From Hymenobacter radiodurans (GTDB lineage Bacteria; Bacteroidota; Bacteroidia; Cytophagales; Hymenobacteraceae): a DNA stretch of 64,000 bases. A program made the position numbers and the translations under genes. The stretch's first letter is position 1. Each line of letters opens with the position of its first letter. Of the stretch, positions 1 through 63,037 are shown one piece after another. The stretch covers positions 310,001 to 374,000 of the forward strand of contig NZ_CP037922.1 in the NCBI RefSeq assembly GCF_004355185.1. Reading direction: 5' to 3'. The notes beneath the pieces are model-generated. The model ran no database searches, was not told the origin of the DNA, and saw nothing but the letters and a program-made list of their open reading frames with translations.

Positions 1-898
1 GTTGAAGCAGGCGTTGGTGCCCGTGCTGAAACAGGAAATCAGTGCCCAGGCTTCCTTTAAAGCGGTGCAAACCACCAATGAGCAGCTTACGGCTGCCAAT
101 TATAAGCCCCAGGTGTATGCCCGCCCGGTCAACCTGTTTTTTCTGACTGACCAAGGCAAGCGCGAGCGGATAGAACCCGAAGACGACTCTTTTGTGGTGC
201 GTAATACGGACCTGCGCTACAGCACGGAGGAATTACTGGAGCTAGTCGGTAAACAGCCCGAATGCTTAAGCCCCAATGTGGTGTTGCGCCCGCTGTATCA
301 GGAGCTGCTGCTGCCCAATTTGTGCTACATCGGAGGTGGCGCGGAAGTAGCCTACTGGTTTCAGCTCAAGCAGGTATTTGCCGATAACAAAGTGCCTTTC
401 CCAATACTGTTGCTGCGCAATTCGGGCCTATATGTGGGTAAGGCCAGTGCGGGCAAATTACGCAAGCTAGGCCTGACAGCTAACGACTTATTTCAGCCGC
501 TGCCGGAGTTGAAAAAACAAGTCGGCAGTGCAATAGGCCAGGAGGAAGTGAGCTTGAAAGCGCAGCAAGAAGCGCTGGGGGGCATTTTTAAGGAGATAAC
601 CGACCTCGCGCAGCGCCTCGACCCTACGCTGGTTAAAACCGTAGCGGCCGAAGCTCAAAAAGCGGCCGCTGGCATCGGCAACTTGGAAAAGCGCCTGAGC
701 AAAGCTGCCGAAAACAAACACGAAATTGTTTTTACCCAGCTTACGGCTTTGAAAGACAAGCTTTTCCCCAATGGCGACCTACAGGAGCGGGTGGAGAATG
801 TGTTGAGCATTATCATCAACAACCCTGAGTTTCTACAGCAGCTTTTCGACGCCTTTGATCCGCTGGCGCTGGAGTTTACGGTGCTGGAGGAAGAGTAG
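1..898 (+). CDS. bshC: BshC, bacillithiol biosynthesis cysteine-adding enzyme (3' part)
   Basis: The gene runs in from before the window; 298 C-terminal residues of a protein usually about 530 long are present. BshC catalyses the last step of bacillithiol synthesis, joining cysteine to glucosamine-malate. The recognisable family stretch is the segment LSPNVVLRPLYQELLLPN followed by YIGGGAEVAYWFQLK, in the core of the BshC fold. The C-terminal third is helical and coiled-coil-like (KAQQEALGG to LEKRLSKAAENK), as in the family. A GGGGGGCATTTTT word lies in the gene at 577-589 and encodes a Gly-Gly-Ile. The bacillithiol-linked ytxJ at 33582 suggests that this thiol is used here. Confidence 0.93.
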   Translation, partial: LKQALVPVLKQEISAQASFKAVQTTNEQLTAANYKPQVYARPVNLFFLTDQGKRERIEPEDDSFVVRNTDLRYSTEELLELVGKQPECLSPNVVLRPLYQELLLPNLCYIGGGAEVAYWFQLKQVFADNKVPFPILLLRNSGLYVGKASAGKLRKLGLTANDLFQPLPELKKQVGSAIGQEEVSLKAQQEALGGIFKEITDLAQRLDPTLVKTVAAEAQKAAAGIGNLEKRLSKAAENKHEIVFTQLTALKDKLFPNGDLQERVENVLSIIINNPEFLQQLFDAFDPLALEFTVLEEE

Positions 899-967
899 AC
901 TTTCGCTTATCTACGAAGCGTGAGTTTGAGTGCTCAGGTCGCTTGGGGGCTTTTTGCTGATTCTTTT

Positions 968-1543
968 ATGCTGAAAGCAGACATACGTCGCACCTTTTTA
1001 ACTCGCCGCCGCACGCTAACGGAAGCAGAAGTAGAGCGGCGCAGTGCGCTGCTTAGCCAGCAGTTATTCGAGAGCTTTCCCATTGCCGACTGGCGTTGGC
1101 TGCATGTGTTTCTACCTATCGCGAAGCAGCACGAGCCGGATACCTGGCTAATTATTCACCGCATCTGGGCGGAGTTTCCGCTAGTGCAGTTGGCCGTACC
1201 CATAATGCAGGCCGATGGGCATACGTTGCGCCACTATCACCTTACCCCTGACACGCAGCTGGTTACGAATCGTTGGGGAATACCGGAGCCGGTTGGAGCG
1301 GAAGAAAAGCCCCCCACGGTCTTTGATGCTGTGCTGGTACCGCTGCTGGCGTGCGACTTGAGCGGCCATCGGGTAGGATATGGCAAGGGTTTCTACGACC
1401 GTTTTCTGGCGCAATGTCGGCCGGAGGCGCAGCGGATAGGCTTGTCACTGGAGCCACCCATTACCCAAGTTGTGGATGTAAACACTACTGATCAGCCGCT
1501 GACGGCTTGTATCACGCCCGAGCAAATATTCTGGTTTCGCTAA
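968..1543 (+). CDS. 5-formyltetrahydrofolate cyclo-ligase
   Basis: Converts 5-formyl-THF to 5,10-methenyl-THF using ATP. The 191-residue length is normal for the family. The C-terminal signature GYGKGFYDRFL is at about residues 137-147, and the N-terminal basic region KADIRRTFLTRRRTL supplies the usual ATP/folate-binding arginines. The ATG at 968 was chosen because the frame upstream to 920 has only a TTG and non-conserved residues. The 70 bases between bshC and this start hold a GGGGGCTTTTT run. The gene ends 4 bases into the convergent GDYXXLXY gene. folP (16322) is another folate gene in the window but is not linked to it. Confidence 0.93.
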   Translation: MLKADIRRTFLTRRRTLTEAEVERRSALLSQQLFESFPIADWRWLHVFLPIAKQHEPDTWLIIHRIWAEFPLVQLAVPIMQADGHTLRHYHLTPDTQLVTNRWGIPEPVGAEEKPPTVFDAVLVPLLACDLSGHRVGYGKGFYDRFLAQCRPEAQRIGLSLEPPITQVVDVNTTDQPLTACITPEQIFWFR

Positions 1544-3464: not shown

Positions 3465-4169
3465 TCAACTCAACTTTCTGGCCCGCGTCATCTCGCGCTT
3501 ACCGGGCGGACCGGGAATTTTCTCCACTACCCATCCCGCCGCCTTCAGGCTGCGCCGGAAGCTGCCTTTAGCACAGTAGCTCGTCAAAATGCCCCCCGGC
3601 GCGGTAGCGGCAAATAGCTGATCGAACACGGCATCGGTCCACATGTCGGGTTGCTTTTCAGGAGCGAAGGCATCGAAATAAACCACGTTGTAATGCGCTG
3701 CGGGCAGGGCAAAATCCTGTAAGGCCGTGTGGAGCTTTCGTAAGGTGAAACGGGAAGTGATGGGCACGGCCTCATTCCAAGGCGCAGCATGCAGCTGATA
3801 GTGAAACTCCTGTAGCTCAGGGTTCAGGATGTAGCGCTCCACGCCCAGCGCAGCAACAACGTGGGGAGGGAGTGGATATTTTTCCAGCGTATCGTAGTGA
3901 ATAAGCTGGGGCGCACTCAGGCCGCGCTGCAAGGTGAGCAAGGCATTCAAGCCGGTGCCAAAGCCGATTTCCAGCACTCGAATTTGCTCCCCCATTTCGG
4001 TCAGCGCTGGCTCCAGTGCCGCTGCCAGGTACACGTGCTGCGCCTCCTGCACGGCGCCATGGGTGGAATGATAATGCTCATTCAGCGCCGGCACGTACAA
4101 GGTGCTGGAGCCGTCCTGCGTCACTCTTACTTCTACCTTTGGCTCCGCGTGTAATTCCTCGTTGCTCAT
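3465..4169 (-). CDS. mnmD: MnmD, tRNA 5-methylaminomethyl-2-thiouridine methyltransferase
   Basis: Stand-alone homologue of the methyltransferase half of MnmC, 234 residues, acting on the wobble uridine of tRNAs. The SAM-binding motif VLEIGFGTGLNALL is at about residues 65-78. The family motif YFDAFAPEKQPDMW is at about 164-177, followed by PGGILTSYCAKGSFRRSLKAAGW. There is no FAD domain, as expected for the MnmD form. The start ATG at 4169 lies only 15 bases from the start of the divergent thioesterase gene, whose -7 promoter element falls inside this coding region. A GGGGGGCATTTT word (plus strand 3586-3597) encodes Gly-Gly-Ile. Confidence 0.93.
   Translation of the reverse strand: MSNEELHAEPKVEVRVTQDGSSTLYVPALNEHYHSTHGAVQEAQHVYLAAALEPALTEMGEQIRVLEIGFGTGLNALLTLQRGLSAPQLIHYDTLEKYPLPPHVVAALGVERYILNPELQEFHYQLHAAPWNEAVPITSRFTLRKLHTALQDFALPAAHYNVVYFDAFAPEKQPDMWTDAVFDQLFAATAPGGILTSYCAKGSFRRSLKAAGWVVEKIPGPPGKREMTRARKLS
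4134..4141 (+). promoter_or_regulatory. TAnnTTTG -7 promoter element (thioesterase gene)
   Basis: TACCTTTG on the plus strand, 43 bases before the ATG at 4185 and inside the 5' end of mnmD. It matches the Bacteroidota housekeeping -7 consensus. No convincing -33 element is visible. Confidence 0.55.
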
Positions 4170-5197: not shown

Positions 5198-5201
5198 CCC
5201 T

Positions 5202-6280: not shown

Positions 6281-6314
6281 AAAAAGCCCCCAACAATAAT
6301 TGGGGGGCTTTTTT
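6281..6314. terminator. Bidirectional intrinsic terminator (G6C-word pair)
   Basis: AAAAAGCCCCCAA and TTGGGGGGCTTTTTT arms around a short AT loop, between convergent rlmN and the barrel-protein gene. Confidence 0.88.
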
Positions 6315-6338: not shown

Positions 6339-7495
6339 CTATTTTACTTTGCCAAATCGATAGGTGACTTCCAAATAAGCGGGCACAACTATTCCGTCTT
6401 CGCCGTCGGTACCGTACAAAATTCCAATGCTGCCGCTCAGCCGGGCGGCGGCTATGCGCAAGCCTGCCAAACCACCAAAGCCGCCATCAACGATGTAGGT
6501 CTCATTGAGAAGCGATACACGGCGTGACACGCGGGTAGCGCCACCAATTACCACTACCGGGCTGCTTTCTACTTCGCCGTCGGCGAATAAATAGCCGAGC
6601 CGAGCGTCACGTTATTGTCGGCGGTGCCGTAGGTGCCGAGGCCATAGCCTATGCCGCCCGTTTCGCCAAATACGCTGGCAAACAAAACACCCGCTCCCAC
6701 GCTGAATTTCTCCGTCACGGCAACACCTACTTTGGGCGTAATAGCTAGAATATTCAGCCCTGCGCCCGGAAATAACCCCACTAGTCCACCAATGGATATG
6801 TTATTGGTAATGCCATAGTTGCCTCCCACGATGAAAATATCAATGTCCTGCACATAGCCCTCACCTTTTCGCAGGGTGCGGGCGGTAGGTGCGAAAAACA
6901 GGCGGGTGCCATTGCCAACTGGCTCCCAGCCTCTTCCGGCCTGGTCTGATGTCAGCGGCTGCATATTTTTTATGTTGGCCTGCTGCACCGTGATGCGCCC
7001 TACGTCCGTCGTCTGAAACTCGTATTCTCCGGCCCGCTGAGCTACGAGTCGGCCGATGAAGGAAGTGCCCGTGCGAAGTTCTACGGAATACATCTGACCC
7101 AACGAGTCAGGCGTGCCAATTGCACCCGCGGCAAGGCCAGGAGTAGCACTTAGCAACTTCTGGCGCTCTTCAATGCTGGCGCGCACGGCCCGGAATTCAC
7201 TGACAGTAAAGGGGCGTTGCTTGATGCTGCCATCGAGCATGGTCGCTTGTAGCGTAATTGAGCTATCAGGCGTGAGAGTTTGAAGGAAACGGGCTTCCCG
7301 GAAGTCATCGAACGAGAAGAACGGAAACAGCCCGTACGTAACCTTCTCCTGCTTATCAATCGATTCGCCTACAATTGGGCTCACCGTCAGTACTCGAGTT
7401 TGGGAACTGGTAGTTTGCTGAGCTACTGCATATTGGGGCGTAAAAAAGCCCCCCAAGCCAAGCAGGAGCAATAGAAGACGGTAAAGTGATTTCAT
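6339..7495 (-). CDS. Outer-membrane beta-barrel protein, hypothetical, frame broken near 6596-6601
   Basis: A signal peptide (MKSLYRLLLLLLGLGGFF, ending near AVAQQ) is followed by a globular part resembling an SH3-like or LSM-like segment (TSFIGRLVAQRAGEYEFQTT). The C-terminal half consists of alternating beta-strands typical of a barrel (NNISIGGLVGLFPGAGLNIL) and ends in TYRFGKVK. The frame breaks in the barrel. Inserting one base (plus strand CGAGCCGAG read as CGAGGCCGAG) gives LGLGYLFADGEVESS and joins the two parts into 385 residues. Unlike the other breaks in this window, this one is not in a run of four or more bases. Function unknown. Confidence 0.7.
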
Positions 7496-9564: not shown

Positions 9565-9592
9565 TTGGTGTTTGGGGGGCTTTTTTGGAGCT

Positions 9593-16325: not shown

Positions 16326-17209
16326 GAGGAGGAGGGAATGAGGGTTTGTTGCACGAGCCGCACAGTGTGCACGGCTTCCGCTACATCATGTACGCGCAAC
16401 AATCGCGCACCGTTGAGCAAAGCGACGGTATTTACGGCAATTGTACCGGTGAGCGCAGCGTCGGGAGTGAGGCCTAGAGGCTTGTATACCATTGACTTGC
16501 GCGAAAGACCGGCCAGTACCGGCAAACCCAGCAGCGCCAGTTCGGGTAGGCGACGCAGTAACTCATGGCTTTGAGCCGGTGTTTTGGCGAACCCGAAGCC
16601 AGGATCGAGAACAACATCCGTTACGCCAGCGGCATACAGAAGGGCCAGCTTATCGCGGAAGTAACGCACGAGATCTGTTACGATATCGTCTTCGTAGTGC
16701 GTTTGCTGGGCCATATTCTGAGGCGTGCCGCGCATGTGCATGAGCACGTACGGTACCCCAAGCCGACCCGCCGTAGCAAACATATCGGCATCAAGCGTGC
16801 CGCCGCTCACATCGTTGATAATATCGGTGCCGATGGCTACTGCTTCAGCGGCTACATCAGCCCGGAAAGTATCGACGGATAAGATTGCTTCAGGAAAAGC
16901 CCCCCGCACGGTCTCCAAGGCGGGCAGCACGCGAGCTTTTTCCTCTTCGGCCGAGATATCCTCAGCGCCCGGCCTAGTGGAATAGCCACCCAAATCGAGA
17001 ACAGCCGCGCCCGCCTGCAGCATCGCGTCGGCCCGCCGCAGTAGGTCGTCGGTGGTGGCGATGCGGTTGCCGGCGTAGAAGGAATCGGGGGTCAGATTCA
17101 GAATGCCCATGACCTGCGGCTGGCGCAGATCCAATACCCGTCCGTCGCGGCAGCACAGGGTTTGCCTCGGGGAAAAACACGTATCTTTCGCGGCGGTCTG
17201 GAGCATCAT
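16322..17209 (-). CDS. folP: Dihydropteroate synthase
   Basis: TIM-barrel enzyme joining 6-hydroxymethyl-dihydropterin diphosphate with p-aminobenzoate, the sulfonamide target. 295 residues. Signature 1 is VMGILNLTPDSFY (residues about 33-45), signature 2 is LDLGGYSTRPGAE, then NDVSGG, and VLDPGFGFAKT for pterin binding. It is the first gene of the pair with cdaA (4-base overlap). The word AAAAGCCCCCC (plus 16895-16905) encodes the Gly-Ala-Phe region near the middle. Confidence 0.95.
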   Translation of the reverse strand: MMLQTAAKDTCFSPRQTLCCRDGRVLDLRQPQVMGILNLTPDSFYAGNRIATTDDLLRRADAMLQAGAAVLDLGGYSTRPGAEDISAEEEKARVLPALETVRGAFPEAILSVDTFRADVAAEAVAIGTDIINDVSGGTLDADMFATAGRLGVPYVLMHMRGTPQNMAQQTHYEDDIVTDLVRYFRDKLALLYAAGVTDVVLDPGFGFAKTPAQSHELLRRLPELALLGLPVLAGLSRKSMVYKPLGLTPDAALTGTIAVNTVALLNGARLLRVHDVAEAVHTVRLVQQTLIPSSS

Positions 17210-17385: not shown

Positions 17386-17955
17386 GTGAAAATCTTGCAA
17401 ACCCAAACCCAGCAGGAGTACGATCAGGTGATAGAGCAGTGCCGGGCGCTGTTTCTGGCCAAAACCCACGATTATGGCACGGCTTGGCGCATTCTGCGCT
17501 TGCCCTCCGTTACGGATCAGCTGTATATCAAGGCCCAGCGCATTCGCTCCATTCAGGAAAAAGGCACCCAGTTAGTAGCCGATGGCGTGAACGAGGAGTT
17601 CGTTGCCATCATCAACTACTGCGTTATTGCCCTGATGCAGTTGCACTTGCCCGCCAACTCGCCCCACGATTTGCCCCCCACGGAAGTAGCCGCCGCCTAC
17701 GACCGTGAGATACAAGCCAACCGGGATTTGCTTTTCGCCAAAAACCATGATTACGGTGAAGCCTGGCGGCAAATGCGCGTGCCCAGCATCACCGATATTA
17801 TTCTAATGAAGCTGCACCGCACCAAGCAAATTGAAGACCTGGGGGGCAAAACGTACGTGTCGGAAGGCGTGGAGGCCAACTACCGCGATATGCTGAATTA
17901 CGCCGTATTTGCCTTGATAAAGCTGGAAGGGGAGAAGGGTAAACCAAAGGCATAG
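17386..17955 (+). CDS. DUF1599 protein (nucleotide-modification-associated domain), duplicated domain
   Basis: A soluble protein of about 189 residues. It consists of two similar halves: FLAKTHDYGTAWRILRLPS with QRIRSIQEKGTQ, and LFAKNHDYGEAWRQMRVPS with HRTKQIEDLGGK. Each half is one DUF1599 unit, so the gene carries an internal duplication. The family is distributed with nucleotide-processing genes; the reaction is not known. The chosen start is the GTG at 17386 because relatives begin about eight residues before EYDQVIEQC; the frame is open upstream to 17236 but with no ATG near. It is followed by the BT_3928 gene, a usual neighbour in Bacteroidota. Confidence 0.82.
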   Translation: MKILQTQTQQEYDQVIEQCRALFLAKTHDYGTAWRILRLPSVTDQLYIKAQRIRSIQEKGTQLVADGVNEEFVAIINYCVIALMQLHLPANSPHDLPPTEVAAAYDREIQANRDLLFAKNHDYGEAWRQMRVPSITDIILMKLHRTKQIEDLGGKTYVSEGVEANYRDMLNYAVFALIKLEGEKGKPKA

Positions 17956-21744: not shown

Positions 21745-21803
21745 CCTTGCTCAATAAAAAAGCCCCCAGACGTTGGTTTGGGGGGCTTTTTTATTGAGCA
21801 AGG
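21745..21803. terminator. Long bidirectional intrinsic terminator
   Basis: The G6C-word pair (AAAAAAGCCCCC / GGGGGGCTTTTTT) is extended outward by a further 10-base complement (CCTTGCTCAA / TTGAGCAAGG). It lies between the hydroxylase gene and the convergent small membrane lipoprotein gene. Confidence 0.92.
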
Positions 21804-22998: not shown

Positions 22999-23450
22999 TT
23001 AATTCGTGATTGTCAGCAAATTACCAGATAGCGAAGTGGCGTACTGACGGAGCGGACGGGGGCGGGGCCACCACGTGGCTGGCCTTGCAGCGTAAATTGC
23101 GAGCCGCAGCAGTCGTCAATCAGAAATAAGCGGGAAGCATCAATAGTTACCGTGGAACACGCCGCATCGTAGGGGCGATAGGGGCAGTTGCGCTCAAAAG
23201 CCAGGTACGTGGTAGCATTTTGGCGCACGATGATAAGTCCTCGCACACCGCCGGGGATCTCTACTGAGCCGTTGTCGGTGCGCAGCTGCGGGTAGCGCTG
23301 GTCCAGAATGCTTATGCTCTCATTAAAGCTAACAAAAGGGATTAGTGGCTCGGCGCTGCTGGAGTCGCCACAACTTGCCAACCCGAGTGCACTGGTGAGT
23401 GCTAAGGCCATAAAGGCACGCTGGGGGGCTTTTTTAACGAGAGTAATCAT
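22999..23450 (-). CDS. Rieske-like lipoprotein lacking cluster ligands, frame broken at 23058-23062
   Basis: The lipoprotein signal MITLVKKAPQRAFMALALTS ends in lipobox GLASC (Cys 27). The mature part follows the Rieske ferredoxin layout of Bacteroidota: NATTYLAFERNCPYRPYDAAC, then DDCCGSQFTLQGQPRGGPA. The canonical CxH and CxxH ligands are replaced (CPY and CCG), so a 2Fe-2S cluster is unlikely. As written the frame ends in PLRYLVIC. Adding one G to the plus-strand G5 run yields the family C-terminus PLRQYATSLSGNLLTITN and 150 residues. The start overlaps the 3' end of the upstream dehydrogenase gene by 17 bases. Confidence 0.72.
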
Positions 23451-41150: not shown

Positions 41151-41263
41151 AGGCGAAAACCTCTCCGGACGATAGGATTATTAGGCTGATGGCGGTGGTA
41201 GCGCCTATACGCCAAAATATTTAACCAGATTTGCCCCCCAACCCACCCAATCCGTTTTCTCAA

Positions 41264-42478
41264 ATGCGCCCCTTAACCATTGGTATCATTCGCGAAGGAA
41301 AAACGCTCCCCGACCTGCGCGTGACGCTCACCCCCAAAAAATGCGTGGAGGCCGAAACGCTATTTCCCGGCCTACGCATTGTGGTGCAAGAATCCTCCGT
41401 GCGCAGCTTTAAAGACCAGGAGTACCGCGACTTAGGTATTGAAGTTCGCCCGGAAGTGTCGGACTGCGACATACTGCTAGGGGTGAAAGAGGTGCCACCC
41501 GACAAGCTCATTCCGAACAAAACCTATATGTTTTTCTCGCACACCGTGAAGAAGCAGCCGGCCAACCGGGAGCTGTTGCAGCAGGTCTTAAAGAAGAATA
41601 TCACGCTGATTGACTATGAGTTACTGACCAATGAGCAAGGTGAGCGAATCGTGGCTTTTGGGCGCTGGGCCGGTATTGTGGGCGCTTATAACGGACTGCT
41701 GACGTATGGGCGCAAGCACAACTTGTATGAACTGAAACCGGCCTACCAATGCATCGACATGGAGGATATGCAGGAGGAGTTCTTCAAAGTCAAAAAATTG
41801 CCCCCCATCAAGATGGCCGTGACGGGGTCGGGGCGGGTGGCGCAGGGCGCGGTGGAGGTGCTCGACAAAATGGGGATCCGACGGGTGAGTGTTTACGATT
41901 ATCTGTACCTGGATTTCCACGAGCCCGTGTATACCCAGCTTAGAAGCAGCGACTACAACCGCCGCCGCGACGGCCGCGTGTGGGATACGCCCGATTTTCA
42001 CCGCAATCCGCAGGAGTACGAATCTACGTTTGGGGCTTTTCTGCATGTTACTGATTTGCTGCTAGCCTGTGCCTACTGGCACCCAGCGGCGCCTAAGCTG
42101 TTCAGCGAAGCGGACACGCAACGACCAGATTTTCGCATCAATACCATCGCCGATATCACTTGCGACGTGAATGGCTCCGTTCCTACTACCAAGCGGAGCA
42201 CCAGCATTCAGGATCCGGCCTTTGACTACAATCCGCAGACCGGCGAGTTGGAGTCGCCCTACTCCAGTCCTACCAATATCACGGTGATGGCCGTGGATAA
42301 CCTTCCCTGCGAGCTACCCCGCAACGCCAGCCGCGACTTCGGCCGGCAGCTGCTAGACAATGTGTTTCCGTATTTAGTGAGCGACAAACCCGAGCCGATT
42401 ATCGAGCGGGCTACCATCGCGGCGGGGGGCAAATTGACGGAACGCTACGCGTATCTGGCTGATTACGTGGCCGACTAG
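41264..42478 (+). CDS. NAD(P)-dependent oxidoreductase, saccharopine dehydrogenase (LYS1)-like
   Basis: A 404-residue two-domain dehydrogenase of the alanine dehydrogenase/LYS1 superfamily. The N-terminal substrate domain starts LTIGIIREGKTLPDLRVTLT, then KEVPPDKLIPNKTYMFFSH, which matches the AlaDH/PNT N-terminal pattern. The Rossmann domain has VTGSGRVAQGAVEVL near residue 190, then ADITCDVNGSVP near residue 300. It resembles lysine-forming saccharopine dehydrogenase, but the substrate is not certain, and a bacterial role in lysine metabolism is inference. It starts 33 bases into a longer open frame, and an ATTTGCCCCCCA word lies upstream. Confidence 0.8.
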   Translation: MRPLTIGIIREGKTLPDLRVTLTPKKCVEAETLFPGLRIVVQESSVRSFKDQEYRDLGIEVRPEVSDCDILLGVKEVPPDKLIPNKTYMFFSHTVKKQPANRELLQQVLKKNITLIDYELLTNEQGERIVAFGRWAGIVGAYNGLLTYGRKHNLYELKPAYQCIDMEDMQEEFFKVKKLPPIKMAVTGSGRVAQGAVEVLDKMGIRRVSVYDYLYLDFHEPVYTQLRSSDYNRRRDGRVWDTPDFHRNPQEYESTFGAFLHVTDLLLACAYWHPAAPKLFSEADTQRPDFRINTIADITCDVNGSVPTTKRSTSIQDPAFDYNPQTGELESPYSSPTNITVMAVDNLPCELPRNASRDFGRQLLDNVFPYLVSDKPEPIIERATIAAGGKLTERYAYLADYVAD

Positions 42479-43482: not shown

Positions 43483-44064
43483 CTAAGCACTCATCGAGTA
43501 TATCGTGGGCCCTCCCAGCAAACCTTCAGGTTGGTACAACTCGGCTCCGGCACGAAACAGGGGTTCGTTTTCGGCTAAGTCGAGGGTGAAGATTGGCTTG
43601 CCATCCAGGGCGCCGCTAAGAAATAAGCGCTCCAAATTGCCCCCCGCTGCCATGTACGGAATAAAGAATTGATCGGCCAATTCTGCAATCAGCAAATTGC
43701 GGATGTCAGCGGTTTCCTGAGTTATAGTAGTCAGTTCTTCTTCGAAGGGAGTGAGAAACAGCAGCCGGTCTGCCGCTAGCTCTGCTTCATATTCCAGCCC
43801 CATATTCGTCCGCATACCTCGGCCGAGGGCATACACGATGGGTTGCTGCTCACCTTGCAGCAGATAGCGAAATACAGTTTGCTCCAGCAAGGAGTGAAAG
43901 CCGGACAGTACACAATGACTGTTCGTTCGTTGCTCCACAGCCCACAGACAAGTGGGATGCTCAATGTAGCCGGGATAGTTGCGGGAGCAAAGAAAAGCGG
44001 TCTTTGGAAGGGTCAGCAGGTCGAGGTTTCCCAAGGTGTGCAACTCTTCCGGGGCAATATTCAT
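43483..44064 (-). CDS. DprA/SMF-like Rossmann-fold protein
   Basis: A 193-residue soluble protein. TLPKTAFLCSRNYP near the N-terminus and CVLSGFHSLLEQTVFRYLLQ followed by PIVYALGRGM look like the Rossmann core of DNA-processing protein DprA (SMF), with the phosphate-binding loop degenerate. The helix-turn-helix ends of DprA are missing, so it may not process incoming DNA. Its stop lies 3 bases from the longest start of the DUF1206 gene, so they may be one transcript. The assignment is moderate; no other clue to function. Confidence 0.5.
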   Translation of the reverse strand: MNIAPEELHTLGNLDLLTLPKTAFLCSRNYPGYIEHPTCLWAVEQRTNSHCVLSGFHSLLEQTVFRYLLQGEQQPIVYALGRGMRTNMGLEYEAELAADRLLFLTPFEEELTTITQETADIRNLLIAELADQFFIPYMAAGGNLERLFLSGALDGKPIFTLDLAENEPLFRAGAELYQPEGLLGGPTIYSMSA

Positions 44065-48309: not shown

Positions 48310-48347
48310 TAAAAAAGCCCCCCAGACCGGGTCTGGGGGCTTTTTTG
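48310..48347. terminator. Bidirectional intrinsic terminator (G6C-word pair)
   Basis: AAAAAAGCCCCCCAGACC and GGTCTGGGGGCTTTTTT arms, 4 bases after the TPR-like gene stop and before the convergent small lipoprotein gene. Confidence 0.92.
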
Positions 48348-49287: not shown

Positions 49288-49344
49288 TTACTCACATAAA
49301 AAAGCCCCCCAACAGTAGTCTGGGGGGCTTTTTTATGTGAGTAA
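49288..49344 (+). terminator. Long intrinsic terminator (G6C-word pair, extended stem)
   Basis: TTACTCACAT plus AAAAAAGCCCCCC pairs with its complement to 49344. The stem is 23-24 bp long with a short loop, 8 bases after the upstream stop. Confidence 0.93.
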
Positions 49345-49432: not shown

Positions 49433-50449
49433 ATGTCAACCACTGCACCACCCGACCTCACGCTTTACGATCCTTTTGCCCGGATGCAGTTTGGCGACCA
49501 ACACTGCTTTTTGTGCGGTTCGCCTACCGATCCGGCCACCCATTCGGTACCGGTATTTGCGGACTGGCTACAGGAGCGTTACGGTTTGGCGGAGCGGCAG
49601 ATTTTGCTGCTCGACCAGAGTATCCGCTTCTACAAAGAGCTGCGTATTCCGTGCTGTCTGCGGTGTCGTACCCAATACGTTGAGCCCCTGGAGGCGCAAA
49701 TGCAGGAAACGGCCAAATTAGGCATAGCTGGATGGCAGGCGCTGCCTGAAAAAACGCTGTTTCTGTGGTTAGGCAAAATGTTCTACGGCATTCTGACCAC
49801 CGAGCTTCTCACCGAACTCGACCCGTTGGTAAAGCCGCGGTATCCGCTCGCCGAGAACGCGCAGATGTTCCGCCGATTTCAAGCGTTCTTTCAAACGTTT
49901 CAGGCCTTGCGCGTACCCATCGAGTTCGAAGACTTCACGCCAGCTTCCATCTTTATTCTGGAAACCGCTCCGCACGAAGACACCATCGCCTTTGAATACG
50001 ACGATGATCTGACTACAATGGTGTTCAGTATCAAACTCGATAATGTGGTACTGATGGCTTGCCTGATGGATAATGGCATCATTCGGCAGGCCATGCGCCA
50101 AGTGTACGCCGACGCACAACGTCCGCTACACCCTATTCAGGTGGCCGAGTACAAAGCCCGCGTATACTATGCGGCCTATCTGTTTGGCGTGATACCCGAC
50201 TATTTTGTGCGGCCGCAGCGGCCCGGCGACCAGCACCTGACCTACGATACGCTCATCGACGACGTGACGGGGGGCATTTTTGCACCTTGGCTAAACTCCG
50301 CCTACGCACAGTCATTGCAGGAAATGTGGAAGCGTTGGCAAATCCCCTATACCGCTATTCTAAGCGACCAGGATGAGCCGTTAAGCTTTCTGTATCAGCC
50401 CGATGGGAAGCCCCGCGAGATGATAATCTATACACCTGATTCAGAATAA
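49433..50449 (+). CDS. Hypothetical protein with N-terminal four-cysteine zinc-site pattern
   Basis: A 338-residue soluble protein. Near the N-terminus HCFLCGSPTD and, about 55 residues on, IPCCLRCRTQYVE form two CxxC pairs that could bind zinc, as in HNH-related or ribbon domains; no HNH histidine is evident. The rest is globular and acidic (FEDFTPASIFILETAPHEDT, EYDDDLTTMVFSIKLDNV). No family is recognised. The ATG at 49433 is chosen over an open frame further upstream because the MSTTAPPD start fits and the -7 element is just ahead. Confidence 0.62.
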   Translation: MSTTAPPDLTLYDPFARMQFGDQHCFLCGSPTDPATHSVPVFADWLQERYGLAERQILLLDQSIRFYKELRIPCCLRCRTQYVEPLEAQMQETAKLGIAGWQALPEKTLFLWLGKMFYGILTTELLTELDPLVKPRYPLAENAQMFRRFQAFFQTFQALRVPIEFEDFTPASIFILETAPHEDTIAFEYDDDLTTMVFSIKLDNVVLMACLMDNGIIRQAMRQVYADAQRPLHPIQVAEYKARVYYAAYLFGVIPDYFVRPQRPGDQHLTYDTLIDDVTGGIFAPWLNSAYAQSLQEMWKRWQIPYTAILSDQDEPLSFLYQPDGKPREMIIYTPDSE

Positions 50450-52816: not shown

Positions 52817-55672
52817 ATGGACGCTTACTCTTACATCGCCAATGCCCATGGCGACTACATAGATCAGCTTTACAAAACGTATCAGCAAGATCCAGAATCG
52901 GTTGATTTTGGCTGGCGTAAGTTTTTTGAAGGCTTCGATTTTTCCCAACAGTTTGCCGACGGCAACAGCCAAGTCGCTCAGCCTGCGGGCTCTGGGGTGC
53001 TAAACGCGTCTGCTTCTACTACTGAAGCAGAAGCAGTCCGTGCTGTGGACACAGTAGCCGCCGATAAGGAAACGCAGGTTCGTAACCTGATTCACGCTTT
53101 CCGTAGCCGGGGGCATCTGCGGGCACGTACCAACCCGGTGCGCGAGCGCAAAGACCGCAAAGCCCGTCTCGACATCGCTGATTTTGGCCTAAGCGAAGCC
53201 GACCTTGATACTTCGTTCAAGAATGGAGAGCTATTAGGGCTGGGGACTAGCGCAAAACTGCGCGACATCGTAGCGGCGCTGGAGAAGATATATACCCGCA
53301 CGATCGGCTTCGAGTATATGTACATCCGTGACCCCCAAATTCTGGACTGGTTCCGGGATAAGGTGGAAAAGGATTCATTGAGCTTTAACCCTGGCATTGA
53401 GTACAAGAAGCGCATCCTGCGGAAGCTCAATGAGGCGGTAGTATTCGAGAACTTTCTGCATACCAAGTTCTTAGGGCAGAAGCGCTTCTCGCTGGAAGGT
53501 GGCGAAACTACTATTCCTGCTCTGGATGCCATCATCAATAAGGCTGCCGGTTTAGGGGTGCGCGAAGTGATGATCGGTATGGCCCACCGGGGTCGTCTGA
53601 ACGTGCTGGCCAACATCATGGGCAAGACCTATGAGCAAATCTTCTCGGAGTTCGAGGGCACTGCCGTACCCGACCTGACCATGGGCGACGGGGACGTGAA
53701 GTACCACATGGGTTACTCATCGGAGGTAGACACGGAAGCCGGGCACAAAGTGAACCTGAAATTGGCCCCCAATCCATCTCACTTGGAGGCAGTTAATCCA
53801 GTGGTTGAAGGTTTTGTGCGGGCTAAAATTGAGCATCAATACAGCGACGATTATCATCAGATTCTGCCTATTTTAATTCATGGTGACGCCGCTTTGGCTG
53901 GCCAGGGAATAGGCTATGAGCTAACCCAGATGTCGCTGCTGGAAGGCTACAAGACTGGTGGCACTATTCACTTCGTTATTAATAACCAAGTTGGTTTCAC
54001 CACCGACTTTGAGGATGCGCGCTCTAGCATTTACAGCACGGACTTAGCTAAGATTATTGATGCGCCAGTGCTGCACGTGAATGGCGACGATCCGGAAGCT
54101 GTGGTATTTGCCGTGCGCTTAGCCACCGAGTATCGTCAGCAGTTTCACGCCGATATCTTTATTGATATGGTGTGCTACCGCCGTCATGGCCACAATGAGT
54201 CGGACGAGCCCAAGTTTACCCAGCCTACGCTCTACAACATCATCAGCAAGCATCAAAACCCGCGTGAGGTGTACAACACCATGCTCGTGCAGCGCGGTGA
54301 CGTAGATGCGGAGCTAGCTAATCAGATGGACCGCGAGTTCCGGGAGATGCTGCAGGCTCGCCTGGATATGGTGAAGCAGAAGCCATTGCCTTACAACTAT
54401 CAGGCTCTCGAAAATGAGTGGCGCAATTTGCGTCGGGCGAAAAACGAAGACTTTGAGCAGTCGCCCGAAACGGGCATCAACGAGGAAGCCATTGCCAAAG
54501 TCGGCAGGGCACTGACTACGCTTCCCGAAGGATTTCGCCCCCTGAAGCAGATTGAGAAGCTGATGGAAGAACGTCGTAAGATGTTCTTTGAAACGCGAAT
54601 TCTGAACTGGGCCGCGGCCGAGCTGCTGGCATATGGTTCCTTGCTGCAGGAGCAGCATATTGTGCGGGTAAGCGGCCAGGATTGCCAACGCGGCACTTTC
54701 TCGCACCGCCATGCCGTATTGCACGACGCGGAGACTTCGGCGCCTTATAACTCATTGAACCACATTGGGGAAGGACAGGAGAAGCTTCGGATCTTCAACT
54801 CCTTGCTGAGTGAATACGCTGTATTAGGCTTCGAATTCGGCTACGCTATGGCCAACCCCACGGCTCTTGTAGTGTGGGAAGCACAGTTTGGTGATTTCGC
54901 TAACGGCGCCCAGACGATGATTGACCAATTCATTGTGTCGTCGGAGAGTAAGTGGCAGCGGATGAATGGAGTGGTGATGCTGTTGCCCCACGGCTACGAA
55001 GGTCAAGGGCCAGAGCACTCCAACGCCCGCCCGGAGCGCTTCCTGCAGCTTGCTGCTGAGAATAATATTGTGGTGGCCAACATTACCACACCGGCCAACT
55101 TCTTCCACGCCCTGCGTCGGCAGTTAACGTGGAGCTTCCGCAAGCCGCTGGTAGTGATGTCGCCCAAGTCGATGCTGCGCCATCCGCTGTGCGTGTCGCC
55201 GGTAGAAGAGTTTACGGGGGGCAATTTCCGCGAAGTTCTTGGTGACGTATATGCTGATGCTAAGAAGGTAAAGCGCGTATTGCTGTGCTCCGGCAAAGTA
55301 TACTTCGACTTGCTGGAAGAGCAGCAAAAGTCTCAGCACAAAGACGTTGCTATCGTGCGTTTGGAGCAGTTGCATCCTTTCCCCCAGAAGCAACTGAACG
55401 TAGAGCTAGCCAAGTATCCGAAGGCTAAAGTGTATTGGGTTCAGGAAGAGCCCGAAAACATGGGTTACTGGAACTACATGCTCCGCTTTATGCGCCGCGA
55501 GTTGGAAGACGTAATTGCCCGCAAGCCTTCAGCTTCGCCAGCTACCGGCTACAACAAGGTGCACGTAAAAGAGCAGAAGGATATTGTGGCCCGCGCTTTC
55601 GGCATCGCATCTGCTGAGGTAGACGCCGAAAATATCAAAGGCACCGTAGAAGTAGCAAAGAAGCAGGACTAA
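52817..55672 (+). CDS. sucA: 2-oxoglutarate dehydrogenase E1 component
   Basis: Decarboxylates 2-oxoglutarate in the TCA cycle with thiamine diphosphate. 951 residues. The N-terminal E2-binding peptide is DAYSYIANAHGDYIDQLYKT. GMAHRGRLNVLANI is in the E1 core, followed by the TPP site region HGDAALAGQGIGYELTQMS and VCYRRHGHNESDEPKFTQP. The C-terminal part has EAQFGDFANGAQTMIDQF and HGYEGQGPEHSNARPERFLQ. The sucB gene follows after 165 bases, and lpdA lies 6 kb on. A GGGGGGCAATTT word near the 3' end (55216) encodes Gly-Gly-Asn. Confidence 0.97.
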   Translation: MDAYSYIANAHGDYIDQLYKTYQQDPESVDFGWRKFFEGFDFSQQFADGNSQVAQPAGSGVLNASASTTEAEAVRAVDTVAADKETQVRNLIHAFRSRGHLRARTNPVRERKDRKARLDIADFGLSEADLDTSFKNGELLGLGTSAKLRDIVAALEKIYTRTIGFEYMYIRDPQILDWFRDKVEKDSLSFNPGIEYKKRILRKLNEAVVFENFLHTKFLGQKRFSLEGGETTIPALDAIINKAAGLGVREVMIGMAHRGRLNVLANIMGKTYEQIFSEFEGTAVPDLTMGDGDVKYHMGYSSEVDTEAGHKVNLKLAPNPSHLEAVNPVVEGFVRAKIEHQYSDDYHQILPILIHGDAALAGQGIGYELTQMSLLEGYKTGGTIHFVINNQVGFTTDFEDARSSIYSTDLAKIIDAPVLHVNGDDPEAVVFAVRLATEYRQQFHADIFIDMVCYRRHGHNESDEPKFTQPTLYNIISKHQNPREVYNTMLVQRGDVDAELANQMDREFREMLQARLDMVKQKPLPYNYQALENEWRNLRRAKNEDFEQSPETGINEEAIAKVGRALTTLPEGFRPLKQIEKLMEERRKMFFETRILNWAAAELLAYGSLLQEQHIVRVSGQDCQRGTFSHRHAVLHDAETSAPYNSLNHIGEGQEKLRIFNSLLSEYAVLGFEFGYAMANPTALVVWEAQFGDFANGAQTMIDQFIVSSESKWQRMNGVVMLLPHGYEGQGPEHSNARPERFLQLAAENNIVVANITTPANFFHALRRQLTWSFRKPLVVMSPKSMLRHPLCVSPVEEFTGGNFREVLGDVYADAKKVKRVLLCSGKVYFDLLEEQQKSQHKDVAIVRLEQLHPFPQKQLNVELAKYPKAKVYWVQEEPENMGYWNYMLRFMRRELEDVIARKPSASPATGYNKVHVKEQKDIVARAFGIASAEVDAENIKGTVEVAKKQD

Positions 55673-55702: not shown

Positions 55703-55837
55703 CAGCAAGTGCGTTGAAAAGCCCCCCAGCCGTGAATTTTCAACGTAATTGGCTTTTTGTTTCAGCAGTAATGGTGGCAGCGAGTACGTCAGTCACCTAG
55801 ATTATCACTCTCCCGAAACTCTTCAATCGTTCCACCT

Positions 55838-57625
55838 ATGGGTCTGGAAATTAAAATCCCCGCCGTCGGCGAATCTATCACCGAAGTGACCATTGCCAAA
55901 TGGCTCAAAAGCGACGGCGCGGCCGTGAAGCGCGACGAAGTTATTGCCGAGCTGGAATCAGACAAGGCTACCTTTGAGCTGCCTGCCGAAGCGGATGGCA
56001 CACTGCAAATTTTGGTAGCCGAGGGCGAAACGATTGGTATCGGCACCGTCATCGCCAACATTGGCGGCGAAGGCAATGGTGCGGCACCCGCCGCTGGTAG
56101 CGCAACTCCAAGCAAGGAAGCCACGCTGGCTCAGCCTCAGGCTGACCCCGTAGCGCCGGGCCAAAAGGAGACGGGCAACAACGGCAGCCAAGGCTCAGCG
56201 GCTGAAAAAGCCCCCCAGACTGCCAAAGATCCGATTACCCAAGGCGAGCAAAATCCTCAGGCGAGTGACCAATCAGGTTATGGCGGTTCAACGGCTGGCT
56301 CAGCCGATAAGCCGACTGCACCGGCCGCGGGCGGTGGCGCTCCAGCTACTGGCGGTGGCGAGGTGAAAGAGATGAAGATTCCGGCCGTGGGCGAGTCCAT
56401 CACGGAGGTAACGGTAGCCAAGTGGCTGAAAGCCGATGGCGCCCAAGTAGAGCGCGACGAGGTAATTGCCGAGCTGGAATCAGATAAAGCGACGTTTGAG
56501 CTGCCTGCCGAAGCCGCTGGCACCTTGCGCCACGCGGCTCAAGAAGGCCAGACAATTGCCATCGGGACGGTTATCGCCCGCATCGAAGGCGGGAGCGGCG
56601 CCACTGCGGGAGCAACTCCGGCTGCCCCAACACCAGCGGCCGCTCAGTCCGCAAGTTCAGCGCCGGCACAGCCTGCCGCTACCGCCGCTTCGGGTAGCGC
56701 TACGTACGCAACGGGCACCCCTTCGCCGGCTGCTGGCAAAATTCTCGGTGAGAAAGGTATTGCCGCCACCGACGTACAAGGTACCGGCCGCGACGGACGC
56801 ATAACCAAGGAAGACGCGCAAAATGCCCAGGCTCGGCCGGCTGCTCCGGCTCCTCAAGCGCCGGCGGCTACGCCTGCAACCAGTGCACAGCCAGCCGCTT
56901 CTGCCAGCGCTCAACCAGCCGGAGAACGGAATCAGCGCCGCGAGCGAATGAGCAACCTGCGCAAGACCGTAGCGCGCCGCTTGGTAGCAGTGAAAAATGA
57001 AACGGCTATGCTCACCACTTTCAATGAGGTGGATATGCAGCCCATCATGGATCTGCGCACGAAGTACAAAGACAAGTTCAAGGAGAAGCATCAGGTTGGC
57101 CTGGGCTTCATGTCTTTCTTCACGAAAGCCTGCTGCGTAGCGCTGAAAGAATTTCCTTCGGTAAATGCTCAGATCGACGGAACCGACATCGTATTCAACG
57201 ACTTCTGCGACGTAAGCATCGCGGTATCAGCGCCGAAGGGCTTGGTGGTGCCAGTAATTCGCAACGCGGAACAGCTGTCATTCGAAGGCATTGAGCGCGA
57301 AGTGGTACGCTTGGCCGGTAAGGCTCGCGATAATAAGCTCACCATTGAGGAAATGACCGGCGGCACATTTACTATCACCAACGGCGGCATTTTTGGCTCA
57401 ATGATGAGTACGCCCATTATAAATGCCCCCCAGTCGGCTATTCTGGGTATGCACAACATTGTGCAGCGCCCTGTAGCCGTGAACGGGCAAGTGGTGATTC
57501 GGCCCATGATGTACCTAGCCCTGAGCTACGACCACCGCATCATCGACGGCCGCGAGTCGGTGTCGTTCCTGGTGCGCGTGAAAGAGTTGCTGGAAGACCC
57601 AACGCGTCTGCTTTTAGGCGTTTAA
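55838..57625 (+). CDS. sucB: Dihydrolipoyllysine succinyltransferase, E2 with two lipoyl domains
   Basis: E2 of the 2-oxoglutarate dehydrogenase complex, 595 residues. Two lipoyl domains start at residues 1 and about 177; each has the lipoylated Lys in [14 protein letters not shown]. Pro/Ala linkers separate them. The E3-binding domain is [20 protein letters not shown] to [12 protein letters not shown]. The catalytic domain ends with [20 protein letters not shown], holding the HxxxDG motif. E. coli SucB has one lipoyl domain, so this enzyme has a duplicated one. AAAAAGCCCCCC (56205) and AAATGCCCCCC (57421) words encode KAPQ and NAPQ. Confidence 0.96.
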
Positions 57626-57642: not shown

Positions 57643-57682
57643 TAAAAAAGCCCCCCAACAATGTGTTGGGGGGGCTTTTTTT
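57643..57682. terminator. Bidirectional intrinsic terminator (G7C variant)
   Basis: AAAAAAGCCCCCCAACA and TGTTGGGGGGGCTTTTTTT arms. The G-run has seven Gs, one more than the C-run. Confidence 0.92.
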
Positions 57683-61164: not shown

Positions 61165-61527
61165 ATGCCGTACTACGTGTACATCACCACTAACCCGGCC
61201 AAGACGGTTTTGTACATCGGCATAACCAATAGCCTTTCTCAGCGAATGGCGCAGCATTACAGTAATCGTGGTAGTAACCAGACTTTCGCTGGGCGCTATT
61301 TCTGTTACAACCTGCTGTATTTTGAAGAATATGCTGCAAGCAAAGCAGCTATTGAGCGCGAAAAGGAATTGAAAGGCTGGACGCGAGCGAAGAAGGAATC
61401 GCTGATTGCTGTGGACAATCCTGACTGGCTTTTTTGCAGCCGTAGAAAACGCAAGCGTACATCGGCGATAAGGTCCTTCCTTCGTCAGGATGACAGATGG
61501 TTGGGGGGCAAAAGTGGGAGGATATAA
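61165..61527 (+). CDS. GIY-YIG nuclease-domain protein (URI type)
   Basis: A 120-residue protein. The N-terminus YYVYITTNPAKTVLYIGITN carries the GIY-YIG pair (here YVY and YIG), followed by the catalytic Arg in LSQRMAQHY and the Glu of KAAIEREKELKGW. The core ends at NPDWLF near residue 91; the remaining 29 residues are encoded partly by the right repeat arm and look accidental. The gene is bracketed by a 30-bp perfect inverted repeat. Proteins of this type are usually found as small orphan nucleases in Bacteroidota; whether it nicks DNA at the repeat is not known. Confidence 0.9.
   Translation: MPYYVYITTNPAKTVLYIGITNSLSQRMAQHYSNRGSNQTFAGRYFCYNLLYFEEYAASKAAIEREKELKGWTRAKKESLIAVDNPDWLFCSRRKRKRTSAIRSFLRQDDRWLGGKSGRI
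61467..61496. repeat. Right arm of 30-bp perfect inverted repeat
   Basis: Reverse complement of 61093-61122 without mismatch. It overlaps the 3' end of the GIY-YIG frame and adds AIRSFLRQDD to the protein. A GGGGGGCAAAA word follows at 61503. Confidence 0.93.
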
Positions 61528-61630
61528 TAGCAGGAGAGGATAAATGCACAAACCCACAATTTCAGCTCTTCACAAATTCGCCTTGCGTACCTTCGTGGCC
61601 GTTGATTTCCATTGAATTCACCTGCTGAAT

Positions 61631-63037
61631 ATGAACCAATACGACGTTACCGTTATCGGCTCGGGTCCGGGCGGTTATGTGGCGGCCATCCGCTGCGCCC
61701 AGCTTGGCCTCAAAACCGCCATCATCGAGAAATACCCCACGCTGGGCGGCACCTGCCTCAACGTGGGCTGCATTCCCAGCAAGGCCCTGCTAGACAGCAC
61801 CGAGCACTACCACAATGCTCACACCACCTTTGAGGAGCACGGCATTGAGCTGAGTGATTTGCAGGTGAATATGAATCAGATGATTGACCGCAAAAACGGC
61901 GTGGTGAAAGCCAACGTGGACGGCATTCAGTACCTGATGAAGAAAAATAAGATCGACGTGATTCAGGGCCTCGGTTCTTTCGTCGATAAGACCCATATCA
62001 AAATCACGCCCACCGGCGGGGGCGAGGAGCAGCAGATCGAGACCAAAAACGTCATCATCGCGACGGGCTCCAAGCCGACTGTTTTGCCCTTTATTCAGCA
62101 GGACAAGCAGCGCATCATTACCAGCACCGAGGCCCTGAACATCCGGGAGGTGCCGAAGCACATGGTAGTGATTGGTGGCGGCGTTATCGGGCTGGAAATG
62201 GCTTCCGTATATGCTCGCCTCGGCGCCAAGGTGTCGGTGGTGGAGTTCATGGACACCATCATCCCAACCATGGACCGCGCCCTGGGCAAGGAGCTGAAGC
62301 GCGTGCTGGGCAAAATCGGCATCGAGTTCTTCTTCAGCCACAAAGTAACCGGCGCCACCCGCGAGGGCGACACCGTAACCGTGACCGCTACCAACCCCAA
62401 GGGCGAGGAAGTGAAGTTTGAGGGCGACTACTGCCTCGTAGCCGTGGGCCGCTCGGCCTACACCCAGGGCCTGAACCTGGAAGCGGCTGGCATTGAGCTA
62501 GAAGAGCGCGGCCGCATCAAGGTCGATGAGCACCTGCAAACCAACGTGGGGGGCATTTATGCCATCGGCGACGTGGTGCGGGGGGCAATGTTGGCCCACA
62601 AAGCCGAAGAGGAAGGCGTATTCGTGGCCGAAACTATTGCCGGCCAGAAGCCCCACGTCAACTACCTGCTCATCCCCGGCGTGGTGTACACCTGGCCCGA
62701 GGTGGCGGGAGTAGGCTACACCGAAGAGCAGCTCAAGGAAACTGGCCGCGCCTACAAAACCGGCTCCTTCCCCTTCCGCGCCTCCGGCCGCGCCCGCGCC
62801 TCCATGGACCTCGACGGTTTCGTGAAAGTGCTGGCCGATAAGGAAACCGACGAAATCCTGGGCGTGCACATGATCGGTCCGCGCATCGCCGACCTCATCG
62901 CCGAAGCCGTAACCGCGATGGAGTTCCGCGCCTCCGCCGAGGACGTAGCCCGCATGAGCCACGCCCACCCAACGTATGCGGAAGCTATGAAGGAAGCATG
63001 CTTAGCCGCTACCGAGAACCGCGCGATTCATATGTAA
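61631..63037 (+). CDS. lpdA: Dihydrolipoyl dehydrogenase (E3)
   Basis: FAD-dependent E3 that reoxidises dihydrolipoamide for the 2-oxoacid dehydrogenase and glycine-cleavage complexes. 468 residues. FAD motif IGSGPGGYVAAIRCAQLGL, redox cysteines in GGTCLNVGCIPSKAL (Cys 42 and 47), NAD motif VIGGGVIGLEMASVYARLGA, and the C-terminal His-Glu pair SHAHPTYAEAMKEA. It likely serves sucAB, the fused E1 and gcvP together. Two GGGGGGC words lie within 40 bases at 62548 and 62580. The gene has higher GC than its neighbours. Confidence 0.97.
   Translation: MNQYDVTVIGSGPGGYVAAIRCAQLGLKTAIIEKYPTLGGTCLNVGCIPSKALLDSTEHYHNAHTTFEEHGIELSDLQVNMNQMIDRKNGVVKANVDGIQYLMKKNKIDVIQGLGSFVDKTHIKITPTGGGEEQQIETKNVIIATGSKPTVLPFIQQDKQRIITSTEALNIREVPKHMVVIGGGVIGLEMASVYARLGAKVSVVEFMDTIIPTMDRALGKELKRVLGKIGIEFFFSHKVTGATREGDTVTVTATNPKGEEVKFEGDYCLVAVGRSAYTQGLNLEAAGIELEERGRIKVDEHLQTNVGGIYAIGDVVRGAMLAHKAEEEGVFVAETIAGQKPHVNYLLIPGVVYTWPEVAGVGYTEEQLKETGRAYKTGSFPFRASGRARASMDLDGFVKVLADKETDEILGVHMIGPRIADLIAEAVTAMEFRASAEDVARMSHAHPTYAEAMKEACLAATENRAIHM

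Follow-up and report, generated by a model that had tools for sequence, protein, structure and literature searches.

A GGGGGGC word with an A/T tract is confined to one Hymenobacter clade and may be a mark of self-DNA

Why should one word, six G residues and a C running into a tract of A and T, recur throughout a single stretch of bacterial chromosome, inside genes as well as in terminators? The stretch in question is 64,000 nucleotides long (G000:C2:310001-374000, hereafter the window) and comes from Hymenobacter radiodurans, whose genome (G000) comprises 4,918,966 bases in two contigs. A preliminary description of the window had listed about 32 scattered copies of the word, together with inverted pairs forming about ten terminators, and had likened this two-part distribution to that of DNA uptake sequences (DUS). 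In the present work we examine whether the word exceeds what composition would yield, which genomes carry it, how its sites are kept and what might read it.

Over-representation and clade restriction

The word, below called the G6C word, was counted as GGGGGGCWWWW on both strands. The window holds 42 copies, against a mean of 0.99 and a maximum of 4 in 100 dinucleotide shuffles, and 29 of the 32 scattered coordinates listed earlier fall within 4 bases of an exact match; at the other three the core is present and the tract is broken (CGAAA at 32507, CAATG at 37682 and 62580). Nearly all runs of six or more G or C were said to stand in this context, and 42 of 49 do indeed continue with C and four A/T letters. 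Over the whole 4.92 Mb genome we counted 2991 copies (1482 forward, 1509 reverse), whereas a reversed-pattern control gave 28, so that the copies run to thousands and lie far above the control. In a 464 kb sample, GGGGGGCTTTT occurs 99 times against 0.6 expected from a third-order Markov model, and at every word length between 9 and 12 the top 16 over-represented words are without exception fragments of the G6C word or of its terminator form. Within genes, called as open reading frames (ORFs) with a codon-position test rather than taken from annotation, 85 copies were observed, compared with a mean of 4.5 and a maximum of 11 in 200 codon shuffles, so codon preference does not account for them. 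These data clearly show that the over-representation is real, and it exceeds the estimate first made for it.

Four of 120 genomes of the genus carry the word: G000 with 2991 copies, Hymenobacter sp. BT188 (G119) with 3473, H. qilianensis JCM 19763 (G010; CP060784) with 2483 and H. roseosalivarius DSM 11622 (G102) with 3096, the other 116 holding 6-48 copies each. In a tree built from one gene with 89 rows, the four carriers lie on one side of one branch with support 100/100, and the neighbouring group of G015 (BT730), G111 and G112 is at background. A set of 58 relatives (36 from the genus, 22 from the order) contained one further carrier only, G010. We also looked for the same word beyond the carrier clade among 247 genomes drawn from the phylum, and the other 246 are at background with at most 72 copies. 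The G6C word is thus restricted to one Hymenobacter clade.

Other members of the genus carry other words. These were sought by scanning 80 loci, none longer than 21 kb, for over-represented words, and tandem- and inverted-repeat cases were removed (high-scoring words were dropped as tandem at L109 and L123, clustered at L122 and inverted at L128). Counted over whole genomes, CTAGGCCAS reaches 4221, 4041, 4018 and 2424 copies in G018, G075, G141 and G137, against at most 320 in the other 116, and its carriers also lie on one side of a branch (support 100/95). The word CTAGGCCA lies mostly outside genes, with 14 of 38 to 17 of 41 copies in called genes, and is less conserved than the G6C word, 11/26 to 19/32 aligned sites being shared in six comparisons. 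Fourfold-degenerate identity in its sites is 0.62-0.93, against 0.54-0.60 elsewhere, and in a two-locus comparison 14/18 and 13/23 sites are shared, against 0.29 for any 8-mer.

ACCTAGSK reaches 10408, 8445, 8181, 4325 and 4173 copies in five other genomes and at most 637 in the rest, all of these being upper figures because the palindrome ACCTAGGT, one form of the word, scores on each strand. With Solirubrum included, it takes three gains or losses to place the ACCTAG words on the tree. Between G033 and G021, a close pair at 90.6% identity, ACCTAGG is shared at 46/61 and 45/56 sites, where fourfold positions are identical in 85/95 and 74/78 cases against 0.78 and 0.77 elsewhere; H. cavernae and H. 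crusticola share only 3/9, 4/10 and 4/11 sites with ACCTAG words. These words are looser than the G6C word and may represent a different phenomenon; palindromic cores, CCTAGG for example, occur in several of the other Hymenobacter words.

Form, placement and conservation of the sites

The fuller form of the word is (C)(T/C)GGGGGGC followed by an A-tract of the type AnTm that lacks a TpA step, and GGGGGGCAnTm is not palindromic. In the 464 kb sample, four A/T letters follow 303 of 357 GGGGGGC, and 268 of these sites were classed as not terminator-like by a rule of our own. TpA-free AnTm tracts make up 254 of the 268, where about 132 would be expected from the tracts after other GGC; CTGGGGGGCAAATTT is an example of the intact word. 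The base before the G run is T in 75% and C in 22% of cases, C is favoured one position further upstream, and the tract is weakly extended to 5-6 letters. Across 665 kb of the four carriers, the G6C core with a tract occurs at 657 per Mb, and the corresponding G5C and G7C forms at 238 and 7.5 per Mb. One-off variants at core positions 2-5 show no excess in G000 and G119, whose 105 and 95 per Mb compare with 139 for the outgroups, and stand at 158 in G010 and 233 in G102; some excess is seen for one-off changes at core position 1 and for G-to-C at position 6. Over all seven core positions, the ratio of exact to one-off copies is 379:267 in G000, 171:60 in G119, 102:114 in G010 and 47:21 in G102, the figures for G000 and G010 being lowered by G5C places. 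For DUS it is reportedly about 2.4 (PMC2397512).

Placement was examined over 190 kb from the window onward, which hold 135 sites, 84 in called genes and 51 intergenic or partial. The intragenic sites fill all six classes of phase and strand, as the claim of occurrence mostly in genes and in several frames would have it, the commonest being xxG GGG GGC WWW (31 of 84) and WWW GCC CCC Cnn (21). Genes hold 0.54 copies per kb, and intergenic DNA holds 0.78 where it is divergent, 1.50 where it is codirectional and 3.19 where it is convergent. Thirteen of the 42 window copies are of the terminator type; 11 of these sit in eight hairpins, often pairing a G6 arm with a shorter one, yet those at 9574 and 33993 lack a second arm. 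Both parts of the distribution therefore stand, but our eight hairpins neither bear out nor contradict the exact figure of about ten terminators, since only those with G6 arms were counted and those with G5C arms alone were not. Among 397 sites in 590 kb, full G6 pairs no more than 60 bp apart point outward, as in terminators, in 11 cases, in the same direction in five and inward in two. Replication polarity is absent, 138 of 262 sites having one orientation across 20 stretches of 20 kb (4-20 sites per stretch) with replichores that we assigned from GC skew.

The second contig, C1 (190,065 bases), holds 11 copies, where about 120 would be expected at chromosome density, and five stretches of it hold 4 copies in 100 kb, against 63 expected. 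It encodes a TraG-type conjugation ATPase, a ParA-like protein and metal-resistance-type transporters, from which we infer a conjugative-type plasmid. AcrB-family efflux pumps, MerT-like and heavy-metal domains are also found on C1, and the GC content of its five stretches is 58-65%, against 54% in a chromosome sample.

The window is collinear with G119 or G010 at about 85.5% identity, and all 84 intragenic sites of the 190 kb lie in DNA alignable to G119. Here 73 of the 84 are fully intact, as are 46 of the 74 aligned in G010, whereas only 29.3% and 27.0% of all intragenic 11-mers are intact in the two genomes; five control sets gave 28-35% and 18-42% respectively, the smallest with 17-20 places, and G6C cores with another tail are intact in 7/20 and 8/19 cases. 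Intergenic or partial sites are intact in 27/39 (G119), 20/37 (G010) and 16/34 (both). At fourfold-degenerate positions within sites, 206 of 209 are identical in G119 and 174 of 182 in G010, compared with 16523 of 24741 (66.8%) and 65.1% elsewhere, and the tract is the same letter for letter in 99 of 104 sites with an intact core in G119. In the reverse direction, 135 alignable G119 sites are exact in G000 in 100 cases, have a shorter G run in 12, one mismatch in 14 and are otherwise changed in 9, a further 44 being unaligned. These data clearly show that the word is conserved much more strictly than the surrounding genes. Fourfold identity to G119 is 0.73 at 1-10 bp from a site, 0.66-0.71 at 11-1600 bp and 0.61 beyond; recombination hot spots around the sites were considered and set aside on this nearly flat profile, and the far drop to 0.61 may only reflect faster-evolving regions.

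The outgroups have no word at the corresponding places. In gapless alignments of intragenic window sites, gapped or unaligned ones being dropped (12 sites in G015, 17 in G111, 12 in G112), they differ from the word at a mean of 4.2-4.6 of 11 positions, compared with 7.3 at random places. Amino acid identity to the outgroups is 0.53-0.54 at the word codons and 0.77 nearby, whereas within the clade it is 0.91-0.95 at the word codons and 0.91-0.93 at neighbours. The word may have overridden the protein or may have settled at tolerant positions, two possibilities that these figures do not separate. On the simplest reading of the alignments, point substitutions on the clade stem would have created the word inside genes that were already there, and it would then have been held. 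At least one copy looks newer than the stem, that at 33993, which was probably gained in the G000 lineage because both relatives lack it (Table 1).

Readings of the word

We favour, with a probability of about 45%, the reading that the word marks the self-DNA of one clade, is read by a double-strand-binding protein and is most likely used in uptake or recombination. It is favoured because of the genome-wide excess, the clade restriction, the fourfold conservation, the lack of polarity, the plasmid depletion and the different word in another clade. The intact intragenic sites, the TpA-free tracts, the presence of ComEC and DprA and the preference of a competent member of the phylum for its own DNA also count in its favour. 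The recognition sequence would be about 12-13 bp long, (C)YGGGGGGC plus a TpA-free A-tract, and would be read as double-stranded DNA by one clade-specific protein, the A-tract perhaps by its shape. The word would have been gained once on the clade stem, its copies would be kept at the DNA level by selection or biased recombination, and it could favour the clade's own DNA in uptake and homologous recombination, much as DUS do in Neisseria, through an uptake machine other than the type IV pilus. If true, this would be a further independent case of uptake sequences, in the Bacteroidota, and the unrelated words together with the lack of a pilus ATPase over cut-off would point to a new DNA-recognition machine. 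With wordless sister species as controls, a single genus would then suffice to test whether genome-wide words originate by selection, drive or repair bias, and the sharp specificity and fourfold conservation suit the word unusually well to a pull-down. What the preliminary description could not show is that the word is restricted to one clade, follows the AnTm rule, is depleted on the plasmid and is one of several words in the genus.

DUS of the Neisseriaceae occur in genes and in terminator hairpins, and the uptake signal sequences (USS) of the Pasteurellaceae have a short core with A/T-rich flanks, genome-wide occurrence, subclade variants and two helically phased A/T tracts. Like DUS, the G6C word is present in thousands of copies on both strands, in genes and in hairpins, at sites conserved above their surroundings; its short core beside A/T-rich sequence, genome-wide spread and subclade variation are points of likeness with USS. 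Unlike DUS it has an A/T-degenerate tract, and unlike USS it has one tract, which directly abuts the core; its carriers have no type IV pilus ATPase over cut-off, in contrast with both DUS and USS systems. Neisseria DUS are 97% conserved against about 85% in their surroundings, with 71% exact in all genomes aligned (PMC2397512), and come in eight clade-specific dialects that share CTG (PMC3630211), whereas the words of different Hymenobacter clades are unrelated. Uptake sequences have been reported from Neisseriaceae and Pasteurellaceae (PMC7811141), and DNA uptake in Neisseria and Haemophilus proceeds through type IV pili; in the phylum to which Hymenobacter belongs, the naturally competent Riemerella columbina shows a preference for its own DNA, by a signal given as unknown, the k-mers listed by its authors being A/T-rich repeats (PMC7965970). 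No earlier description of the G6C word was found among the titles and abstract openings listed in searches of one open-access collection. The analogy with uptake sequences holds for copy number, occurrence on both strands, placement in genes and terminators, conservation and clade-specific words, while the use of the word as an uptake signal is putative. Membership of the Neisseria/Haemophilus type is not supported, since the PF00437 ATPase was over cut-off in none of 17 genomes.

Several findings weigh against a self-DNA mark. Of the competence genes that the preliminary description had suggested looking for, ComEC was found in 8/8 and DprA in 12/12 genomes, which speaks for the mark, but both are present equally in wordless relatives and do not track the word. 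The 17 genomes searched for PF00437, the ATPase family of the type IV pilus, the type II secretion system and VirB11, include 13 that carry one of three words, the pilins themselves not being searched, and weak matches below cut-off came from three wordless genomes (G015, G111 and G112). All 14 control genomes gave matches, 13 over cut-off, and the known outer-membrane uptake route is therefore missing from the searched genomes. Among the titles and abstract openings listed from the same collection, none reports competence for Hymenobacter, although two papers contain both terms once each. A protein that reads the word was not identified, no gene-content search for a reader gene having been made. 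Sites are spaced at random (coefficient of variation 0.98, 95% of random draws 0.81-1.13), regular spacing having been looked for and not seen, and CTAGGCCA and the G6C word behave differently in location and conservation.

Further points of the same kind concern the sites themselves. Of 74 intragenic sites, no more than 39 are intact throughout G000, G119 and G010, and 18 of the 74 aligned in G010 carry indels, many of which would be frameshifts; these are probably homopolymer assembly errors, in which case the copy numbers of G010 are probably low. The G5C form with a tract is itself in excess, outgroups having 17 per Mb. At the 55 such places in 190 kb of G000, G119 has G6C in 34 (9 of them inside genes; for example window position 12363), G5C in 8, another sequence in 8 and no aligned counterpart in 5, so that G6C in the sister accounts for part of the excess only. 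The G000 sequence may under-call G runs, and the true number of words is probably above 2991.

Foremost among the alternatives is that a clade-specific nucleoid or chromosome-structuring protein binds the word and requires anchor points in the thousands along the resident chromosome. A word that is chromosome-wide, unpolar, on both strands and depleted on the plasmid would suit such a protein, the TpA-free A-tract suggests double-strand shape readout, and one-off variants at core positions 2-5 are not in excess in G000 and G119 (G010 and G102 having the higher values given above). However, nucleoid proteins are usually degenerate in specificity and common to a genus, while in this case the word is missing from sister species and a second clade has a word of its own, and a pure anchor does not predict the contrast between convergent intergenic DNA and genes (3.19 vs 0.54 per kb). 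On balance we regard this explanation as rather unlikely.

A by-product of biased repair is less likely still. Here a mismatch-repair or methylation-linked ratchet would make and protect the word with no functional selection, as proposed for the highly iterated palindromes (HIP) of cyanobacteria, where HIP1 is a very frequent word with lineage-specific alternatives and such a ratchet has been modelled (PMC4390886). The palindromic cores of several other Hymenobacter words would fit. HIP words, however, are palindromes tied to methyltransferase sites, whereas the G6C word is long and not palindromic; the distance of the outgroups from it amounts to more than one repair step, and a general bias should not spare the plasmid, although a recently acquired plasmid would lag.

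We consider it very unlikely that the word is a Chi-like recombination signal for an AddAB/RecBCD-type enzyme. Chi and the FtsK-orienting polar sequences (KOPS) are G-rich, frequent, over-represented and polar with respect to replication, and Chi words are 5-8 nt long. The G6C word is likewise G-rich, frequent and clade-specific, and its 84 intragenic sites all lie in G119-alignable DNA, but it is longer than Chi words, its lack of orientation bias (138/262) rejects polarity of the Chi/KOPS type, and its A/T-tolerant, TpA-avoiding tract points to double-strand rather than single-strand reading. A purely compositional origin, from G-rich terminators and a preference for Gly-Gly and Ala-Pro codons, could claim the 11 of 42 window copies in terminator hairpins and is refuted by the window shuffles, the Markov-3 and codon-shuffle expectations, the 6-48 copies of the 116 congeners and the fourfold conservation.

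A wider form of the self-DNA reading, possible although we hold it doubtful, is that Hymenobacter lineages independently evolved unrelated marks (G6C plus A-tract, CTAGGCCAST and the ACCTAG types), which would be read by an undescribed, pilus-independent recognition or uptake system whose specificity was replaced between clades, each clade having rewritten its sites by the thousand, with amino acids sacrificed in some of its proteins.

Sites of the window and minor observations

Table 1. Copies of the G6C word and terminator hairpin arms in the window. The last column gives the state at the aligned place in each relative.
Sequence	Positions	Strand	Context	Relatives
GGGGGGCATTT	577..587	+	intragenic	exact G119, G010; absent G111, G112
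GGGGGGCTTTT	1305..1315	-	intragenic	G119 tract ATTT; G010 core one-off
GGGGGGCATTT	3587..3597	-	intragenic	exact G010; one-off G119
GGGGGGCTTTT	6302..6312	+	terminator hairpin	
GGGGGGCTTTT	7444..7454	-	intragenic	exact G119, G010
GGGGGGCTTTT	9574..9584	+	intergenic, no second arm seen	
GGGGGGCTTTT	16895..16905	-	intragenic	exact G010; one-off G119
GGGGGGCAAAT	17669..17679	-	intragenic	exact G119, G010
GGGGGGCAAAA	17841..17851	+	intragenic	exact G119; one-off G010
GGGGGGCAAAA	19274..19284	-	just upstream of ORF	exact G119, G010
GGGGGGCAAAA	19577..19587	+	intragenic	one-off G119; one G fewer G010
GGGGGGCTTTT	21780..21790	+	terminator hairpin	
GGGGGGCTTTT	23423..23433	+	within ORF of mechanical list	exact G119, G010
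GGGGGGCATTT	23958..23968	+	intragenic	exact G119, G010
GGGGGGCATTT	24103..24113	+	intragenic	exact G119; broken G010
GGGGGGCATTT	25188..25198	+	intragenic, ORF presumably PheS-like	exact G119, G010
GGGGGGCTTTT	27527..27537	+	terminator hairpin	
GGGGGGCATAA	28297..28307	+	intragenic; sole window tract with TpA step	
GGGGGGCATTT	31706..31716	-	intragenic	exact G119; one G fewer G010
GGGGGGCAAAT	33205..33215	+		exact G119, G010
GGGGGGCTTTT	33993..34003	+		absent G119, G010
	36916..36926	-	terminator hairpin, left arm	
	36938..36948	+	terminator hairpin, right arm	
GGGGGGCATTT	37021..37031	-	intragenic	exact G119, G010
GGGGGGCTTTT	38139..38149	+	terminator hairpin	
GGGGGGCAAAT	41229..41239	-		exact G119, G010, G102
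GGGGGGCAATT	41796..41806	-	in ORF, presumably alanine-dehydrogenase-like	exact G119, G010, G102; outgroups differ by point substitutions
GGGGGGCAAAT	42424..42434	+	intragenic	exact G010, G102; tract broken G119
GGGGGGCAAAA	43276..43286	-	intragenic	exact G119, G010, G102
GGGGGGCAATT	43635..43645	-	intragenic	exact G119, G010, G102
	48313..48323	-	terminator hairpin, arm	
	49300..49310	-	terminator hairpin, left arm	
	49322..49332	+	terminator hairpin, right arm	
GGGGGGCATTT	50269..50279	+	intragenic	exact G119; one-off G010
GGGGGGCAATT	55216..55226	+	intragenic, ORF presumably 2-oxoglutarate-dehydrogenase-like	exact G119, G010
GGGGGGCTTTT	55717..55727	-	intergenic	
GGGGGGCTTTT	56206..56216	-	intragenic	exact G119; one-off G010
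GGGGGGCATTT	57421..57431	-	intragenic	exact G010; tract broken G119
	57646..57656	-	terminator hairpin, left arm	
	57669..57679	+	terminator hairpin, right arm, seven-G run	
GGGGGGCAAAA	61503..61513	+	intergenic	unaligned
GGGGGGCATTT	62548..62558	+	intragenic, ORF presumably LpdA-like	exact G119, G010

Some further words were seen at individual loci of the scan. Several Hymenobacter lineages (L196-L205, L131, L169 and L140) carry ACCTAG or CCTAGG words by the thousand in each genome, which is notable as CTAG is usually rare in bacteria. The word CCTACCCC (GGGGTAGG) is over-represented at loci of H. ginkgonis, an uncultured Hymenobacter, H. latericoloratus and H. sediminis (L150, L162, L164 and L120) and possibly resembles a KOPS-type word, while AGGGCCCC/GGGGCCCC is over-represented in H. 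caeli and H. nivis (L153 and L154). Scattered words with spaced copies that also lie in ORFs were found in a Cytophagales metagenome-assembled genome (CTTGCCTAC, 10 copies in 8.9 kb; L165) and in Pontibacter arcticus (AAGTATAA, 14 copies in 12.7 kb; L161). Within the window itself, a gene at 5147-6267, which we take from its motif to encode a radical-SAM protein of the RlmN type, is broken into two overlapping ORFs in the manner of a frameshift.

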